Source: Geobacteraceae bacterium
Lineage (GTDB): Bacteria; Desulfobacterota; Desulfuromonadia; Geobacterales; Pseudopelobacteraceae
Assembly: GCA_025355325.1 (NCBI GenBank)
Contig: JANXZX010000142.1
Location: 1-53,245, forward strand
Reading direction: 5' to 3'
DNA: 53,245 nt
The notes under the pieces are model-generated. The model saw only the letters and a list, made by a program, of their open reading frames with translations. It made no database searches and was not told the DNA's origin. The translations under genes were made by a program, and so were the position numbers. This document shows, piece by piece, positions 2,543 through 44,389 of this stretch (within the stretch, counting starts at the first letter, position 1; the number at the start of each line of letters is the position of its first letter).

Positions 2543-4249
2543 ATGCAGTCAAACCGACTGGGAGAAATCCTCGTAAAAAATAACCTGATCAGTCGTGATC
2601 AGCTAGGTAAAGCGCTGGAAGAACAAAAACTTTCCGGTAGCCAGCTTCGTCTTGGTACTATTCTAATTAATCAAAAATCAGTTACAGAAGATCAACTTAC
2701 CTCATTCTTATCCAAACAATATGGCGTTCCAAGTGTAAACCTTTCCGATTATGAGATTGATCCGGGCGTAATTAAAACCATTCCGCCGGAAGTAGTTCAA
2801 AAGTATCAGTTAATGCCGGTTAATAGAGCAGGGGCGACTCTGATTATTGCTGTCAGTGATCCATCAAACCTGTTTGCAATTGAAGATATTAAATTTATGA
2901 CCGGCTACAATATTGAAACGGTCGTAGCTTCAGAACGTGATATTAAAGCATCGATAGACAAGTACTACGATCAGTCCGCATCACTTGCCGACGTCATGAG
3001 TGACCTTGATGTTGAGGACATGGAAATTATTGGCGAGGAAGAGCAGGTAGACATCGGTAATCTTGAGCGGGCAACTGAGGATGCTCCGGTTGTCAAGATG
3101 GTCAATGCAATTTTGCAGGATGCTATCAGAAAAAAAGCAAGCGATATTCATATAGAACCGTATGAGAAGCTTTTCAGGGTTCGCTTCAGGATCGATGGCG
3201 TTCTCTACGAAATCATGAAGCCACCTTTAAAACTGAAAAATGCCATCACATCTCGTATCAAGATTATGGCTGAACTGGATATCGCCGAACGCCGTCTGCC
3301 ACAGGATGGGCGTATTAAAATCAAACTTGGCGGCGGTAAGGACATGGACTTTCGTGTTTCATGTCTTCCGACGCTATTCGGCGAGAAGATCGTTATGCGA
3401 CTTCTCGACAAAGGCAACCTGCAAACTGATTTGACTAAACTTGGGTATGAACCTGATGCCTTAGCACATTTTATGCACGAAATACATAAACCGTTCGGCA
3501 TGGTTTTAGTTACCGGACCAACGGGAAGTGGTAAAACAGTATCCCTTTATTCAGCGATATCCGAACTGAATAAAGTTTCAGAAAATATTTCCACGGCCGA
3601 AGATCCGGTTGAATTCAACTTTGCCGGAATTAACCAGGTTCAGATGCATGAAGACATTGGCCTCAATTTTTCGGCGGCGTTGCGATCTTTTTTACGTCAG
3701 GATCCTGATATTATTATGATCGGGGAAATCCGCGATTTTGAAACTGCTGAAATTGCCATCAAGGCCGCGTTGACCGGTCATATGGTGCTTTCAACATTAC
3801 ATACCAACGACGCACCGGCTACCATTAACCGCCTGCTTAACATGGGTATAGAACCATTTCTGGTAGCTTCGGCAGTAAATCTGATAACAGCCCAACGTTT
3901 GGCACGTCGCGTCTGTGGTGAATGTAAACAACCGGAGGAGATTCCGCTTCAGGCATTAATTGATGCCGGTGTTTCTCCTGAGGAAGCGCCTTCGTTTGTC
4001 TGCATGCGCGGCAAAGGGTGTCCTGTCTGTAACAATACCGGATACAAGGGGCGCGTTGGTTTTTATCAAGTTATGCCGATGCGTGAAGAAATTAAGGAAC
4101 TGATTTTAAATGGCGCCAATACTGCTGAAATCAAACGTGAATCCATGCGAATCGGCATCAAGACAATGCGTCAGTCCGGATTGACAAAACTAAAAGAAGG
4201 TGTAACCTCCTTTGAAGAAGTTTTGAGGATAACAGTTTCCGACGACTAA
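2543..4249 (+). CDS. pilB: Type IV pilus extension ATPase PilB
   Basis: A 568-residue hexameric ATPase of the GspE/PilB family that powers pilus assembly at the inner membrane. The N-terminus carries two tandem RLG-x2-L motifs (about residues 5-28 and 36-59), the MshEN arrangement that in several PilB/MshE proteins binds c-di-GMP. The catalytic part has Walker A GPTGSGKT (325-332), the Asp-box TAEDPVE, a Walker B region IIMIGEIRD (390-398) and a His-box around TLHTNDA. Cysteine pairs C458/C461 and C493/C496 form the usual zinc site. GGAG at 2534-2537 supports the ATG. It opens a run with pilT, pilC and pilS. Length and motifs are normal, so the call is secure; c-di-GMP binding is inferred from the motif. 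Confidence 0.95.
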   Translation: MQSNRLGEILVKNNLISRDQLGKALEEQKLSGSQLRLGTILINQKSVTEDQLTSFLSKQYGVPSVNLSDYEIDPGVIKTIPPEVVQKYQLMPVNRAGATLIIAVSDPSNLFAIEDIKFMTGYNIETVVASERDIKASIDKYYDQSASLADVMSDLDVEDMEIIGEEEQVDIGNLERATEDAPVVKMVNAILQDAIRKKASDIHIEPYEKLFRVRFRIDGVLYEIMKPPLKLKNAITSRIKIMAELDIAERRLPQDGRIKIKLGGGKDMDFRVSCLPTLFGEKIVMRLLDKGNLQTDLTKLGYEPDALAHFMHEIHKPFGMVLVTGPTGSGKTVSLYSAISELNKVSENISTAEDPVEFNFAGINQVQMHEDIGLNFSAALRSFLRQDPDIIMIGEIRDFETAEIAIKAALTGHMVLSTLHTNDAPATINRLLNMGIEPFLVASAVNLITAQRLARRVCGECKQPEEIPLQALIDAGVSPEEAPSFVCMRGKGCPVCNNTGYKGRVGFYQVMPMREEIKELILNGANTAEIKRESMRIGIKTMRQSGLTKLKEGVTSFEEVLRITVSDD

Positions 4250-4264
4250 ACAGGAGGGCACTCA

Positions 4265-5362
4265 ATGCTCAACCTTCATCAGTTGCTTAAAACTCTCGTT
4301 GAAGCAAATGGCTCAGATCTTCACATAACAACCAACTCCCCTCCGCAAATGCGTGTCGATGGCCACCTGCAGGTCATGGACTTTCCACCCATGAATCCGG
4401 TTGAAACGAAACAGCTCTGTTACAGCGTGCTGACAGATGCTCAAAAACACAAATTCGAAGAGGAAAATGAGTTAGATCTTTCATTTGGGGTTAAAGGTCT
4501 TTCTCGCTTCAGGGGAAATATGTTCATTCAACGGGGTGCCGTGGGTGGCGTATTCAGGGTTATTCCGTACAAGATTCTTACATTTGAAGAATTAGGTTTG
4601 CCACCGATCGTCCCCGAGCTGGCCGCCAGACCACGTGGTCTGATTCTTGTGACCGGTCCAACCGGAAGCGGCAAGTCCACGACGCTTGCTTCTATAGTCG
4701 ATTATATCAACATCAATAGACGCGAGCATATCGTCACAATAGAGGATCCGATTGAATATCTGCATCCCCACAAAGGCTGTCTTGTAAATCAGCGTGAAGT
4801 TGGCTCTGATACTAAAGGATTTAAAAACGCGCTCAAATATGTCCTGCGCCAGGATCCTGATGTTGTTCTGGTCGGAGAGTTGCGCGACCTTGAAACTATT
4901 GAGGCGGCCCTGACACTGGCCGAAACCGGTCACCTTTGTCTTGCCACGCTTCACACCAATTCGTGCGCCCAGACCATAAACAGAATTGTCGATGTCTTCC
5001 CTCCTTATCAGCAGACACAAATACGAGCGCAGCTTTCATTTGTTCTTGAAGGCGTCATGTCACAGACCCTCATTCCTCGGATGGGCGTAAAAGGCCGTGC
5101 TCTGGCTCTTGAAATCATGGTTCCCAATGCTGCAATCAGAAATCTGATTCGTGAGGACAAGGTTCATCAAATATATTCCCAGATGCAGATTGGACAGGAA
5201 AAATTCGGGATGCAGACCATGAATCAATCACTTTTTTCCCTTTTCAAAAAACGTATGATTTCTCTGGAAGAGGCTCTCGGGCGTTCGCAGGATCCTGAAG
5301 AACTGAAGCAAATGATGAGCAACCCAGCTGCAGGTATGCAGCGTCGCCCCCAGATGAACTGA
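4265..5362 (+). CDS. pilT: Type IV pilus retraction ATPase PilT
   Basis: A 365-residue cytoplasmic ATPase that drives pilus depolymerisation and twitching. It shows Walker A GPTGSGKS (131-138), the Asp-box TIEDPIEYLH, a Walker B region VVLVGELRD, and the PilT-specific C-terminal AIRNLIRE (290-297). It lacks the long N-terminal domain and zinc cysteines of PilB, as expected. An AGGAGGG Shine-Dalgarno lies in the 15-base gap after pilB. Being between pilB and pilC, it is probably made with the rest of the motor. Confidence 0.95.
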   Translation: MLNLHQLLKTLVEANGSDLHITTNSPPQMRVDGHLQVMDFPPMNPVETKQLCYSVLTDAQKHKFEEENELDLSFGVKGLSRFRGNMFIQRGAVGGVFRVIPYKILTFEELGLPPIVPELAARPRGLILVTGPTGSGKSTTLASIVDYININRREHIVTIEDPIEYLHPHKGCLVNQREVGSDTKGFKNALKYVLRQDPDVVLVGELRDLETIEAALTLAETGHLCLATLHTNSCAQTINRIVDVFPPYQQTQIRAQLSFVLEGVMSQTLIPRMGVKGRALALEIMVPNAAIRNLIREDKVHQIYSQMQIGQEKFGMQTMNQSLFSLFKKRMISLEEALGRSQDPEELKQMMSNPAAGMQRRPQMN

Positions 5363-5382
5363 AATAATGAAGGAGTATCATA

Positions 5383-6600
5383 ATGCCAAAATTTAACTGG
5401 GAAGCCCGTACCAAAACCGGTGGCACGCAAAAAGGTGTTATCGAAGCGGCAACTGTTGATGTTGTTGAAGCGCAGCTGAAAAAGTATGGTTTCAATAATA
5501 TTTCTATCAAAGAACAATCAAAGGGTCTGGGTTTCAAGTTGCCGAGTTTTGGCGGCGGTAAAAAAATCATTGAAAAAGATCTTGTTATTTTTACCAGGCA
5601 GTTTTCGACAATGATCGACTCCGGCCTGCCGCTTGTTCAATGCCTCGAAATCCTGGCCAGTCAACAGGAAAACAAAGCTTTTCAGGAAATCTTATACAAG
5701 ATCAAGGAAAGCGTAGAGAGCGGTTCTACATTTGCCGATGCCTTGGCAAAACACCCGAGAGCATTTGACCAACTGTTCGTAAACCTTGTTGCTGCCGGTG
5801 AAATAGGCGGTATTCTGGATACCATTTTAACACGACTGGCTGCCTATATAGAAAAGTCGATGAAGCTGAAGAAACAGATCAAAGGGGCAATGGTCTATCC
5901 AATTACCATCATGTCCATTGCTGTGGTTGTTGTCGGTGTCATTCTTGTGTTTGTTATCCCGACTTTTGCCAAAATGTTTGCAGATTTTGGTGGTGAACTC
6001 CCCGCGCCAACAAAAATTGTTATTGCTCTCAGTAATTTTCTCGTTAAATACATTTTCTTACTTATTGGCGGGTTCTACGCCATTGTCTGGGGTATTAAAA
6101 AGTATTATGCCACTCCGGGCGGGCAGAAAAATATTGACCGTATGGCGCTCAAAGCCCCCATAGCAGGTCCGCTGATCAGGAAGGTTGCGGTTGCAAAATT
6201 TACCCGGACATTAGGTACAATGGTCAGCTCCGGTGTGCCAATCATGGATGGTCTTGAAATTGTTGCTAAAACTGCCGGAAACAAAATTATCGAAGAAGCG
6301 ATTTATGGAGTACGTCAGGCAATTTCGGAAGGTAAAACGATGGCTGAACCGCTTGCAGCCTGCGGAGTTTTTCCTCCGATGGTAGTCCAGATGATTTCGG
6401 TAGGTGAGGCGACGGGTGCTATGGACGCCATGCTGAATAAAATCGCTGATTTTTATGATGATGAAGTAGATGATGCGGTAGGAGCAATGACCGCCATGAT
6501 GGAACCGTTATTGATGGTGTTTCTCGGAACGACCGTCGGTGGACTGGTTGTGGCCATGTATCTGCCGATATTCAAATTGGCGGGAGCTGTCGGCGGTTGA
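5383..6600 (+). CDS. pilC: Type IV pilus inner-membrane platform protein PilC
   Basis: A 405-residue GspF/PilC protein that couples the PilB and PilT motors to pilin movement in the inner membrane. It has the N-terminal W-E-A-R-T-K-T-G entry segment, two homologous GspF repeats (about 70-195 and 270-395, each starting with a FTRQFSTMIDSG- or FTRTLGTMVSSG-like sequence) and three hydrophobic helices near residues 175-200, 220-240 and 375-400. The length is typical. An AAGGAG site precedes the ATG, and the gene overlaps the 5' end of pilS if pilS uses its TTG. Confidence 0.94.
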   Translation: MPKFNWEARTKTGGTQKGVIEAATVDVVEAQLKKYGFNNISIKEQSKGLGFKLPSFGGGKKIIEKDLVIFTRQFSTMIDSGLPLVQCLEILASQQENKAFQEILYKIKESVESGSTFADALAKHPRAFDQLFVNLVAAGEIGGILDTILTRLAAYIEKSMKLKKQIKGAMVYPITIMSIAVVVVGVILVFVIPTFAKMFADFGGELPAPTKIVIALSNFLVKYIFLLIGGFYAIVWGIKKYYATPGGQKNIDRMALKAPIAGPLIRKVAVAKFTRTLGTMVSSGVPIMDGLEIVAKTAGNKIIEEAIYGVRQAISEGKTMAEPLAACGVFPPMVVQMISVGEATGAMDAMLNKIADFYDDEVDDAVGAMTAMMEPLLMVFLGTTVGGLVVAMYLPIFKLAGAVGG

Positions 6601-10371: not shown

Positions 10372-12267
10372 ATGGACACTCATTCCACAGAAGATCCCGC
10401 TGCTTCCCCTGTAAAAGGTACAATTGTAAACTTGCTGCTCAAAGAGAACATTATCACTGCTAAGCAGCTTGATTATGCTGTCCGGGTTCGCAGCAAGATT
10501 ATTTCTCCCAAAACCATGATTGCTACACTGGTTGATCTTGGGTATGTAACGCTTGATGCGCTACAAGAAGCCTTGAGGAACAACCGGGTAAACATCCGCC
10601 TTGGTGATTTTCTTGTAGAACTTGGCTACCTTCGTGAAGCTGATCTGAAACAGGCGCTTGGTATGCAGTCTGAATCAAAAAGCAAGCAACGTTTGGGAGA
10701 GATCCTGGTTGATCGAGGATTCATCGAAGAGCGGAAACTGTTAGAGGCCTTATCCTACCAACTGGGATATCCTCTGATTGAGTTGACCTTCGTGTCCATA
10801 GACCGCACGCTGCTTTCAATCCTCCCGCTCACAATCTGTCAGGAGTTGGAAATAATACCGGTTCGCCGCGAAGATTCCATGATTCTCCTTGCTGTCTCGG
10901 ACCCGCTTGACCAATCATTGCTTGATCGTTCCAGAAAATATCTTGGAGATAATGTCAGTATCGCCATTGCTTCTAAGGAATCAATCCGCAACGCACTCAA
11001 GGCTCTTGAAAGGTCTGCGAATCAGCCGGTTCTCTCCGACGAAAATACGATCATAGGCATGATCAACTCCCTTATGGACGAAGCTATTCAGGATGGTGCC
11101 AGCGACATACATATCGAACCATTGAAGGACCGGCTTCGAGTCCGATTCAGGCTGGATGGAGTAATGCACCACCATAAAGATTTTCCGAAGGAGATTGCCC
11201 CACAGCTTTCCACTCGAATTAAAGTCATGGCTCAATCCGATATCGCTGAAAAACGCCGTCATCAGGATGGCAGAATTCTCTATAAAAGCCATATTCACGG
11301 AATTGATCTCGATCTTCGTGTATCAATATTTATCACCATTTTTGGCGAGAAGATTGTTATGCGGCTTCTCAATAACAAAACGTCACTTCTGGATATCAAG
11401 GAAATCGGCATGGCTCCCCGCATGCTGGATCATTTTATCTACGAGGCGGTTGAAGTTCCAACCGGTGTCATGATTATTACCGGCCCGACCGGATCAGGCA
11501 AGACATGTACTCTCTACAGTTGCGTTAATTATCTGAATAACGTCAATACCAGCATTATAACGGCCGAAGATCCGGTCGAAATTGTTATCGATGGTATTTC
11601 CCAATGTTCCATCAATTCAAAGATTGGCGTTACCTTTGAAGAGACATTGAGGCATATCGTCAGACAAGATCCCGACGTTATCGTTCTCGGAGAAATTCGC
11701 GATCATTTTTCTGCAGAAACTGCTATTCAGGCTGCCTTGACCGGTCATAAGGTTCTAACCACGTTTCATACCGAGGACAGTATCGGTGGTTTAATTCGTT
11801 TGATGAATATGGAAATTGAAGCGTTCCTTATTTCTTCAACGGTAGTCTGCGTCGTTGCGCAGCGCCTGTTGCGCCGGATCTGCCCCGAATGTTCCGAACC
11901 ATATATCCCTACACCACTGGACTTAAGCAGGCTTAATGTAACGGTCAATGATCTGGTTGGCGCCGAATTTAAAATCGGGCGGGGTTGCAAAGCCTGCCGA
12001 TTTACCGGTTATAACGGGCGGGTAGGGGTGTTCGAATTGCTTGTAATGAATGAAATGGTCAAAAATGCCATACTCAACAAAAGGAGTTCTTACGACATCC
12101 GCAAAATCAGTATTGAAACCTCGGGGATGGTTACATTGCTTGAAGACGGCTTGGTCAAAGGAGCCCGCGGAGAGATTTCATTGAATGAAATAATCACCGA
12201 TCTTCCGCGACTTGGCAAACCACGATCTTTGGCAGAATTGCGCAGAATATTGGGAGTAATTGAATGA
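10372..12267 (+). CDS. Second GspE/PilB-type secretion ATPase with extended MshEN region
   Basis: A 631-residue GspE/PilB ATPase. The core has Walker A GPTGSGKT (371-378), Asp-box TAEDPVE, Walker B VIVLGEIRD and paired zinc cysteines (CPEC and CKAC). The N-terminus is longer than in PilB: two clear RLG-type MshEN motifs (76-99 and 107-130) are preceded by a degenerate copy at about residues 16-71. It differs from PilB at the His-box (FHTEDSIGG in place of LHTNDAPAT), so it is not a recent duplicate. It probably drives a type II secretion or second pilus-like machine. ATGA overlap couples it to the HDOD gene. Confidence 0.88.
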   Translation: MDTHSTEDPAASPVKGTIVNLLLKENIITAKQLDYAVRVRSKIISPKTMIATLVDLGYVTLDALQEALRNNRVNIRLGDFLVELGYLREADLKQALGMQSESKSKQRLGEILVDRGFIEERKLLEALSYQLGYPLIELTFVSIDRTLLSILPLTICQELEIIPVRREDSMILLAVSDPLDQSLLDRSRKYLGDNVSIAIASKESIRNALKALERSANQPVLSDENTIIGMINSLMDEAIQDGASDIHIEPLKDRLRVRFRLDGVMHHHKDFPKEIAPQLSTRIKVMAQSDIAEKRRHQDGRILYKSHIHGIDLDLRVSIFITIFGEKIVMRLLNNKTSLLDIKEIGMAPRMLDHFIYEAVEVPTGVMIITGPTGSGKTCTLYSCVNYLNNVNTSIITAEDPVEIVIDGISQCSINSKIGVTFEETLRHIVRQDPDVIVLGEIRDHFSAETAIQAALTGHKVLTTFHTEDSIGGLIRLMNMEIEAFLISSTVVCVVAQRLLRRICPECSEPYIPTPLDLSRLNVTVNDLVGAEFKIGRGCKACRFTGYNGRVGVFELLVMNEMVKNAILNKRSSYDIRKISIETSGMVTLLEDGLVKGARGEISLNEIITDLPRLGKPRSLAELRRILGVIE

Positions 12268-33240: not shown

Positions 33241-34383
33241 ATGAGCATTAAAGTGCTGGTAGCCGACGACAGTATCACCATTCAAAAAGTAATCGGCATC
33301 ATATTCGGCGGAGATGAATATTCATTGACGGTTGTCGACAATGGCAAAGCCGCAATTGAAAAAGCCCGGGAAATTAACCCGGATATACTTCTTATAGATG
33401 CCCTGATGCCGGGTATGACCGGTTATGAAGTTTCTGAAGTGGTTCGTGCAACGCCGTCTCTAGCTGACAAGCCGATTCTGATCCTTACCGGATCTTTTGA
33501 GCCATTTGACGAGGAAAAGGCAAAAAAATGCGGAGCTGACGATTTTATTGCCAAGCCGTTTGAATCGCAGCAGATAATCACCAAGGTACAAGAGCTATTG
33601 GAACTTGGAAAGAATAGAGCCCAGTCAACTCTGGCCTCGCAGGCACAGACTGAAATAAGTGCTGAACAGCCTCCAATAGCAACTGCTCCCACATTTGATG
33701 TATCGGCTCAGGTGGCTTTTGTTCAGCCTGAAGCTCCGAAGTCAGCAGATCCTGCCGATATATGGGGCGCTTTTACTCCTGAAGATGCACCGTTTGCTGA
33801 AGTCACAGAAGTTCCGGTTACTGAAGATCTTTCTGCTTCATCCTTCGATCCCGATGTTTTTGCCATCGTATCCGAGGAAGAAGATGTACAGTTCACAAAG
33901 CCCGCCCCGGTAACAACTCCATCATTTCAAAGCACCGGTACTCAATGGCTTCCTGTTGAGGAAAGTACTTTTGAGTTTGAAGAAGAAACCGGATCTGGTA
34001 TCGCGACTACAGTTGTGGAACAGTCGATTACAATCCAGGAACCATCCATCGATGACATTTCTTTTGAGGATGAGACTGAATTTCAAACAGTACAAACTCC
34101 TCCGGAGGCTGATTATACTTCTGCTCCCGCTCCGGAAAGTGCCGACTTCACCGTTCCACCGTCGATGTATGAAGAGCCACCAGTGCTTGAACCGGTTGCT
34201 GCCGCAATGGTTGCATCCACCGAAACACCCCCTGCTCCGCTCAGTCTGACTGAAGAACAATTGAAAGCTGCAATCTCAAGCGCATCAAAAGAAGTTATTG
34301 AACGAATCGTTTGGGAAGTTGTTCCCGACCTTGCTGAAGCCCTGATCCGCGACGCAATCAGAAAAATTAAAGAAGGGATTTAA
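33241..34383 (+). CDS. Receiver-domain protein with long acidic Pro-rich linker and conserved C-terminal helix
   Basis: A 380-residue protein. The REC domain (about 1-120) is complete: D9/D10, phospho-D53 (LLIDALMPG), T83 and K105. Residues ~130-330 are rich in Glu, Asp, Pro, Ser and Thr with few hydrophobics, and are probably disordered. The last ~45 residues form a helix block, SKEVIERIVWEVVPDLAEALIRDAIRKI. The order REC, Pro/acid-rich linker, terminal helix is like RomR, and the linker-plus-helix part resembles PopZ; both are polar organisers. The ATG at 33241 has AAGGGAGGG just upstream. No output DNA-binding domain is present. Polar function is inference. Confidence 0.82.
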   Translation: MSIKVLVADDSITIQKVIGIIFGGDEYSLTVVDNGKAAIEKAREINPDILLIDALMPGMTGYEVSEVVRATPSLADKPILILTGSFEPFDEEKAKKCGADDFIAKPFESQQIITKVQELLELGKNRAQSTLASQAQTEISAEQPPIATAPTFDVSAQVAFVQPEAPKSADPADIWGAFTPEDAPFAEVTEVPVTEDLSASSFDPDVFAIVSEEEDVQFTKPAPVTTPSFQSTGTQWLPVEESTFEFEEETGSGIATTVVEQSITIQEPSIDDISFEDETEFQTVQTPPEADYTSAPAPESADFTVPPSMYEEPPVLEPVAAAMVASTETPPAPLSLTEEQLKAAISSASKEVIERIVWEVVPDLAEALIRDAIRKIKEGI

Positions 34384-34410
34384 TTCCCCGCGTGTGCATA
34401 GCAACTATGA

Positions 34411-34436
34411 GGGGGTGGAAACATCCCCTTTTTTTT
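34411..34436 (+). terminator. Intrinsic terminator / candidate attenuator immediately before trpD
   Basis: GGGGGTG (34411-34417) pairs with CATCCCC (34422-34428; one G-T pair) around a GAAA tetraloop, followed by eight T. Only 16 bases separate it from the trpD ATG, so it may end the receiver-gene mRNA, attenuate trpDC, or both. Confidence 0.85.
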
Positions 34437-43003: not shown

Positions 43004-44389
43004 ATGTCGCAGCAAAAGCCTGTTTTGATTGATTCACACGCTCATATATACTATCGCGATTTTATCGCTGATTTTGACGACATGCTCAAACGCGCCGAAG
43101 ATGCCGGTGTATCGGCTATTCTAGTGGTGGGCACAGATATAGAATCTAGTCGTGAATCGGTCATGCTTGCAGAAAAATACCCGCACCTGTATGCCGCCGT
43201 CGGCATCCACCCCCATGACGCAGGGAGAGTCACTGAAGCCTGTTACGACATCATTCGTACTATGGCCGTTTCCAGCCAAAAAGTTGTCGCCATTGGTGAG
43301 ATAGGACTTGATTTCTATCGCGACCGCTCGCCGCGAGATGCACAGGAAACTGTCTTTCGCCGATTTCTCCGGATGGCGGCAGAGCTGAACAAACCGGTTA
43401 TTATCCATGATCGTGACGCTCACGACCGAATCATGTCTATTCTAAGGGAGGAACCGGCACGGAAAGGCGTGCTGCACTGTTTTTCCGGAGATGCCGCTAT
43501 GGCCTCCGAAGCAGCCGCACTCGGCTTCCATATATCAATACCGGGCACAATCACGTATCCCGGCAATGAGAGCCTGAGGGATGTCGTACGTGCCGTCAGC
43601 ATTGATCGAATGCTCGTTGAGACTGACTGCCCATATCTGACCCCTACCCCGCATCGCGGCAAACGAAACGAACCTGCTTACGTACGGCTGGCTGCCGAAA
43701 AACTTGCCGAAGTCAAAGGTTTGACTCTGGATGACGTCGCCCGGATCACCACCAAAAATGCCAGTGACCTGTTCGGAATCAACCTCTGGGATCAGTCAAC
43801 AAAGATAGCCTACCGGATTCGCAACTCGCTGTACCTGAATATCACCAACCGCTGCTCAAACCGGTGCACGTTCTGTCCCAAATTTGATGATTTTACGGTC
43901 AAGGGACACAATCTGATGCTGGATAGTGAACCTTCATTTGAGGAAGTTATGGCGGCAATCGGTCAACCGGAAGGAATTGATGAAATAGTTTTCTGCGGCT
44001 TCGGTGAGCCGTTAATCCGGCTTGATCTGGTGAAAGAACTGGCAACTGTACTTAAACAACGGGGTTTCTGCATACGTATTAATACGGACGGGCAAGCCAA
44101 CAAGGTCTATAAGCGCGATATACTGCCAGAACTGGCCGGACTGGTTGACAGTCTCTCAGTCAGCCTGAACGCGCCCGATGCGACTACATACAGTCGACTT
44201 TGCAACACCCCCTTCGGCGAAACCGGCTTCTCTGCTGTCTGCGATTTTATCCGCGCTGCCGCAAATCATATACCACAAGTAATCGCCAGTGCCGTTACCG
44301 TTCCGGGTGTCGATATCGAAGCGTGCCGAATATTGGCAGAATCACTCGGAGCAGAGTTCAGGGTAAGAGAATATACCGAAGTTGGATAG
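43004..44389 (+). CDS. TatD-family hydrolase fused to a TatD-linked radical SAM domain
   Basis: A 461-residue fusion. Residues ~5-260 are a TatD metal-dependent deoxyribonuclease with H12-x-H14, E99, H135, H158 and D208 as likely metal ligands. Residues ~270-461 are a radical SAM domain with C284-x3-C288-x2-C291 (NRCSNRCTFC). The two types also occur as neighbouring separate genes in other bacteria, supporting a joint function. The radical SAM reaction is unknown. All TatD metal ligands appear intact, so nuclease activity is plausible. It follows the TPR gene directly. Confidence 0.9.
   Translation: MSQQKPVLIDSHAHIYYRDFIADFDDMLKRAEDAGVSAILVVGTDIESSRESVMLAEKYPHLYAAVGIHPHDAGRVTEACYDIIRTMAVSSQKVVAIGEIGLDFYRDRSPRDAQETVFRRFLRMAAELNKPVIIHDRDAHDRIMSILREEPARKGVLHCFSGDAAMASEAAALGFHISIPGTITYPGNESLRDVVRAVSIDRMLVETDCPYLTPTPHRGKRNEPAYVRLAAEKLAEVKGLTLDDVARITTKNASDLFGINLWDQSTKIAYRIRNSLYLNITNRCSNRCTFCPKFDDFTVKGHNLMLDSEPSFEEVMAAIGQPEGIDEIVFCGFGEPLIRLDLVKELATVLKQRGFCIRINTDGQANKVYKRDILPELAGLVDSLSVSLNAPDATTYSRLCNTPFGETGFSAVCDFIRAAANHIPQVIASAVTVPGVDIEACRILAESLGAEFRVREYTEVG

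Follow-up and report, generated by a model that had tools for sequence, protein, structure and literature searches.

Which kind of protein is a response regulator whose receiver is followed by a long acidic linker and a terminal helix block, and with which partners would it work? We asked this of a 380-residue protein encoded in a stretch of 53,245 nucleotides (hereafter the window) from the draft genome of a Geobacteraceae bacterium. A sequence-only reading of the locus had called its layout RomR/PopZ-like and had proposed a polarity factor for pili. Our analysis indicates that the gene very probably encodes RomR, a response-regulator-type protein that acts as recruiter in the front-rear polarity module of MglA, MglB and MglC. 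RomR helps define the cell front in Myxococcus xanthus, which moves by gliding, and the window protein would be its counterpart in a Geobacter-like bacterium. RomR proteins with the conserved RomR-C region in Geobacter and Pelobacter were already on record in 2012 (PMC3441718), so the gene is a further member of a known protein kind, and those homologs probably belong to the same orthologous group. In a literature search, we found no localisation, genetic or functional study of RomR in a Geobacter-like lineage. The features of the locus are collected in Table 1.

Table 1. Features of the probable romR locus, in window coordinates
Feature	Position	Strand	Basis or remark
romR coding sequence (probable)	33241..34383	+	380 aa; ORF list, profile and alignment against M. 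xanthus RomR, receiver tree
Receiver domain, residues 5-116	33253..33588	+	PF00072, E = 9e-22; complete
Disordered-looking acidic linker, residues 126-328 (203 residues)	33616..34224	+	composition; low complexity
RomR-C helical block, residues 329-380	34225..34380	+	54% identity over 39 aa to M. xanthus RomR-C
Predicted MglC-binding core, E354, R355, W358, E366	34300..34338	+	alignment; M. xanthus residue roles from PMC12719032
Terminator-like hairpin with T-tract	34409..34430	+	between romR and trpD; pattern match only

Domain layout and relation to RomR

The gene starts at an ATG closely preceded by GGGAGG, a Shine-Dalgarno-like sequence that makes a plausible ribosome-binding site. As the sequence-only reading had stated, the receiver is complete, with D9, D10, D53, T83 and K105 all present, and no output enzyme, DNA-binding domain or other domain was found beside it in Pfam and NCBIfam searches. 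The linker is indeed highly acidic, with 40 D/E and 3 K/R (net charge -37), 24 P and 26 A. When 29 relatives of the same family were compared with the window protein, the median identity was 84% for the receiver and 39% for the linker, and it rose again to 82% over the last 45 residues, where a conserved helix had been noticed. Hence both ends are constrained, and the middle acts as a spacer.

A search profile was built from 19 C-termini of the family and run against the 9.1-Mb genome of M. xanthus strain AM003. Exactly one match was obtained (E=3e-13), in a protein of 419 residues whose receiver is followed by a Pro/Gly/Arg-rich linker and which has LREALSKASREVIEKIAWEVVPQLAETIIREELERL as its C-terminus. 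Published RomR has 420 residues, a receiver, a Pro-rich linker and a Glu-rich helix with Trp394 (PMC12719032, PMC3441718). Since the layout fits this description, the AM003 protein was taken as RomR; residue numbers in AM003 are one lower than in the published protein. The comparison of the C-terminus with RomR that had been proposed thus gave a clear match, and in direct alignment the RomR-C regions of the two proteins were related at E=5e-15. The alignment score of 113 lay at z = 16 relative to 5000 shuffles (mean 26, sd 5, maximum 60), so the resemblance of the C-termini is not due to chance. Two Pfam matches of the C-terminus, DGCR6 and RuvA_C, fell far short of the cut-offs (E>=0.01) and were regarded as noise.

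The receiver was compared separately. It shared 45% identity over 136 residues with the M. xanthus RomR receiver (133 bits), whereas the best of the receivers from the same genome that were compared with it reached 75 bits. In a maximum-likelihood tree, the RomR receivers of Myxococcota and Desulfobacterota (27 sequences), together with that of the relative G009 described below, formed one clade with a stem length of 1.59 and support of 100/99, from which 23 other receivers of the window genome were excluded. The receiver and the C-terminus, the two conserved regions, thus both match RomR, and the RomR half of the earlier label can be raised to full membership, as supported by profile, pairwise alignment and receiver tree.

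Like M. xanthus RomR (MXAN_4461; PMC3441718), the window protein combines a receiver, a disordered-looking linker and RomR-C, and the phospho-acceptor D53 carries the same residue number in both. The proteins differ in length (419-420 residues in M. xanthus) and in the charge of the linker, which is reversed: Pro/Gly/Arg-rich with a net charge of +9 in M. xanthus, acidic here. That the composition of the RomR linker is group-specific was already pointed out in PMC3441718, and the window protein has such a linker of lineage-specific composition, apparently unstructured as judged by composition only. RomR of Bdellovibrio bacteriovorus (Bd2761, PMC6428892) belongs to the same family by its receiver and C-terminus. 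However, it starts past the key receiver residues, which are intact in the window protein, and its genome is without MglB, which is intact in the window genome (PMC6428892).

RomR-C occurs once in the window genome, as it does in M. xanthus, and it is single-copy in 55 of the 60 family genomes. Across the phylum, the C-terminal profile found matches in 72 of 247 genomes; for Myxococcota the figure was 90 of 97. In two other genomes (L070 of G139, and G068:C63), one receiver protein was seen to finish with two RomR-C-like motifs in a row (EKVAWEVIPDL ... EKVAWEVVPDLAERLI).

The predicted MglC interface and the partner genes

In M. xanthus, RomR needs its RomR-C region in order to oligomerise, to bind MglC and to localise to the poles (PMC10329633). 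Residues 371-420 alone bind MglC at nanomolar affinity, W394 is required, and E390, K391 and E402 lie within the modelled MglC contact (PMC12719032). These four residues correspond, at identical spacing, to E354, R355, W358 and E366 of the window protein, with the conservative change of K to R. The Trp and Pro that are invariant in the helical RomR-C are likewise retained, as W358 and P362. A Trp was found at the place of W358 in all 75 aligned members (a set that leaves G009 outside), even though Y, F or R was allowed there. A single-sequence AlphaFold model of the protein had a mean pLDDT of 41, with the receiver unfolded and the C-terminal helices at about 70-80; a model of such low confidence supports no conclusion.

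We then looked for the partners of RomR in the same genome. The genes mglB and mglA are adjacent on another contig (L035; MglB 1456-1947, MglA 2042-2629), and their products matched the M. xanthus MglB and MglA structures at E=3e-64 and E=1e-107, respectively. A profile of 10 Myxococcota MglC sequences identified an MglC of 120 residues (G000:C158:17666-18022, E=2e-26) with 36% identity to M. xanthus MglC, in which K104/R106/R110 bind RomR and F25/D26/I28 bind MglB (PMC10329633). The window-genome protein has Y25-D26-G27-I28 together with K104, R106 and K110, that is, two conservative changes relative to F25 and R110. A short roadblock protein with both residue sets is therefore encoded alongside RomR in the genome at large, and the window genome resembles that of M. 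xanthus in containing MglA, MglB and MglC. The mglC gene lies in the row aroB-TPR-mglC-aroQ-pepP, an arrangement shared by most related genomes that were examined.

It may be noted that the end of the TPR protein gene (L152, 8717-9676) overlaps the start of mglC, and that this protein stands alongside mglC in most related genomes examined; it is possibly an extra partner of the polarity module. Another roadblock protein of 118 residues, encoded near ftsY (L037, 1417-1773, minus strand), had been the first MglC candidate through the generic Robl_LC7 model. It was dropped because it reached only 22 bits against an MglC profile and is without the FDI and KRR residues, and because the MglC at G000:C158 is a much better match. 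It is distinct from both MglB and MglC.

Across Desulfobacterota, MglC was found in 37 of 44 RomR-bearing genomes (23/24 in one set and 14/20 in a second) and in 0 of 20 RomR-less genomes (Fisher p = 5e-11, a value that overstates independence because the genomes are related). MglB was present in 23 of 24 RomR-bearing genomes as against 3 of 20 RomR-less ones, where the matches were just 33-42% identical. In nearly all of the family, E takes the place of K14 of MglB, which is among the three residues reported to take part in binding MglC; the residues E84, R115 and K120 are retained.

RomY, which stimulates the GAP activity of MglB, was searched with a 188-aa M. xanthus ORF. This ORF lies some 26 kb away from mglC and was taken to be RomY because its length and layout agree with what PMC9481161 describes. 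It was detected in 22 of 24 Desulfobacterota genomes searched, including all congeners searched. In the draft window genome, neither the M. xanthus nor a congener RomY gave a match, a difference from M. xanthus that may reflect an assembly gap or a real loss.

One relative in the same family, G009, has a small, nominally complete genome in which romR is kept at the same place before trpD (L050). Its RomR retains the receiver, and in its C-terminus, ERVAREVIPDLAE, the Trp is replaced by Arg. Profile and sequence searches of this genome found no match for MglB, MglC or RomY. The joint loss of the RomR Trp and of MglC is what an interface model predicts, in a single case. Taken with the co-occurrence of RomR and MglC, it lends independent evolutionary support to an interface that was shown by mutagenesis in one species.

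Proposed mechanism and alternative readings

By analogy with M. xanthus, RomR would oligomerise via its C-terminal helix and sit at the poles, where its Trp/Glu face would dock on a positively charged groove that the MglC dimer forms. MglC would also bind MglB, which acts as GAP on the Ras-like GTPase MglA, so that RomR, MglC and MglB would form a positive feedback. The receiver may help keep MglA-GTP at the opposite (leading) pole, together with RomX if that protein is present, and MglA-GTP would most likely set the pole of type IV pilus assembly. The acidic linker would be a flexible spacer and may add a lineage-specific polar-targeting signal. Against a RomR module of this kind stand the RomY that was not found, the change of MglB K14 to E and the reversed charge of the linker.

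The neighbourhood of romR says little about its output. Its conserved neighbour is trpD (29 of 29 relatives), and this adjacency, behind a terminator-like hairpin, carries no information on RomR function. The earlier proposal had also drawn on pil genes in the window. These are present (pilB, pilT and pilC at 2543-6600), but they lie about 27 kb from romR; they are no evidence of a link to it and were given little weight. Elsewhere in the window, inspection by eye suggests a second PilB/GspE-like ATPase at 10372-12267, besides pilB at 2543-4249, followed by an HDOD-like protein, and a single ORF at 43004-44389 that seems to join a TatD-type hydrolase to a radical SAM domain.

The conserved ends of the protein could be read in two other ways. 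With PopZ, the window protein shares only a generic layout, in which an acidic, Pro-containing and apparently disordered stretch is followed by a helix at the end; to our knowledge, PopZ contains no receiver domain. A self-assembling polar hub of this type, in which the C-terminal helix would polymerise to a matrix and the acidic Pro-rich linker would set its fluidity independently of MglA, MglB and MglC, would also be in keeping with the oligomers, up to trimers, formed by M. xanthus RomR-C (PMC10329633). However, neither the whole protein nor its last 60 residues nor the C-termini of 19 relatives matched a PopZ/DUF2497 Pfam model at E<=10 (HMMER's filters drop very weak matches), and the C-terminus matches RomR-C instead. 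We therefore gave up the PopZ half of the earlier label and consider such a hub highly improbable. Only some 40 residues are conserved at the C-terminus, and they could in principle belong to an orphan receiver with an unrelated binding partner and resemble RomR by convergence. Receiver and C-terminus indicate RomR independently, though, and the co-occurrence with MglC is strong; such convergence is scarcely credible.

A different question is whether RomR, by descent, serves a module that positions something other than type IV pili, such as flagella, envelope growth or the respiratory/nanowire machinery. The constant neighbour trpD in place of pil genes, a linker chemistry unlike that of M. 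xanthus and the report that Bdellovibrio RomR is essential and more than a simple motility switch (PMC6428892) all speak for this. The last case, an essential RomR with a truncated receiver, indicates that RomR roles can drift. On the other side, pilB, pilT and pilC exist in the genome, and in M. xanthus MglA-GTP promotes the assembly of pili at the leading cell pole (PMC9481161). We regard a non-pilus output as unlikely, yet as an alternative to be reckoned with. The joint presence of RomR with MglA, MglB and MglC gives good support, at the level of sequence, to the proposal that it is a polarity factor; a pilus-specific role, transferred from M. xanthus, is plausible.

The loose RomR/PopZ-like label can thus be replaced by a firm assignment to RomR, tied to MglA, MglB and MglC of the same genome. 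From the sequences compared, the RomR-MglC interface appears to extend far outside the myxobacteria; this broad distribution of MglC alongside RomR may already have been described. We tentatively suggest, with a little short of even confidence, that the RomR-MglC-MglB recruitment chain, for which detailed descriptions come from myxobacteria alone, is an older circuit common to many Desulfobacterota, in which RomR retains its Trp wherever MglC is retained and polar targeting by the linker has been rebuilt on the opposite charge. If the module works here, it would offer a system for studying how a bacterial Ras-like GTPase picks the pilus pole, in organisms that are studied for their pili and extracellular electron transfer.
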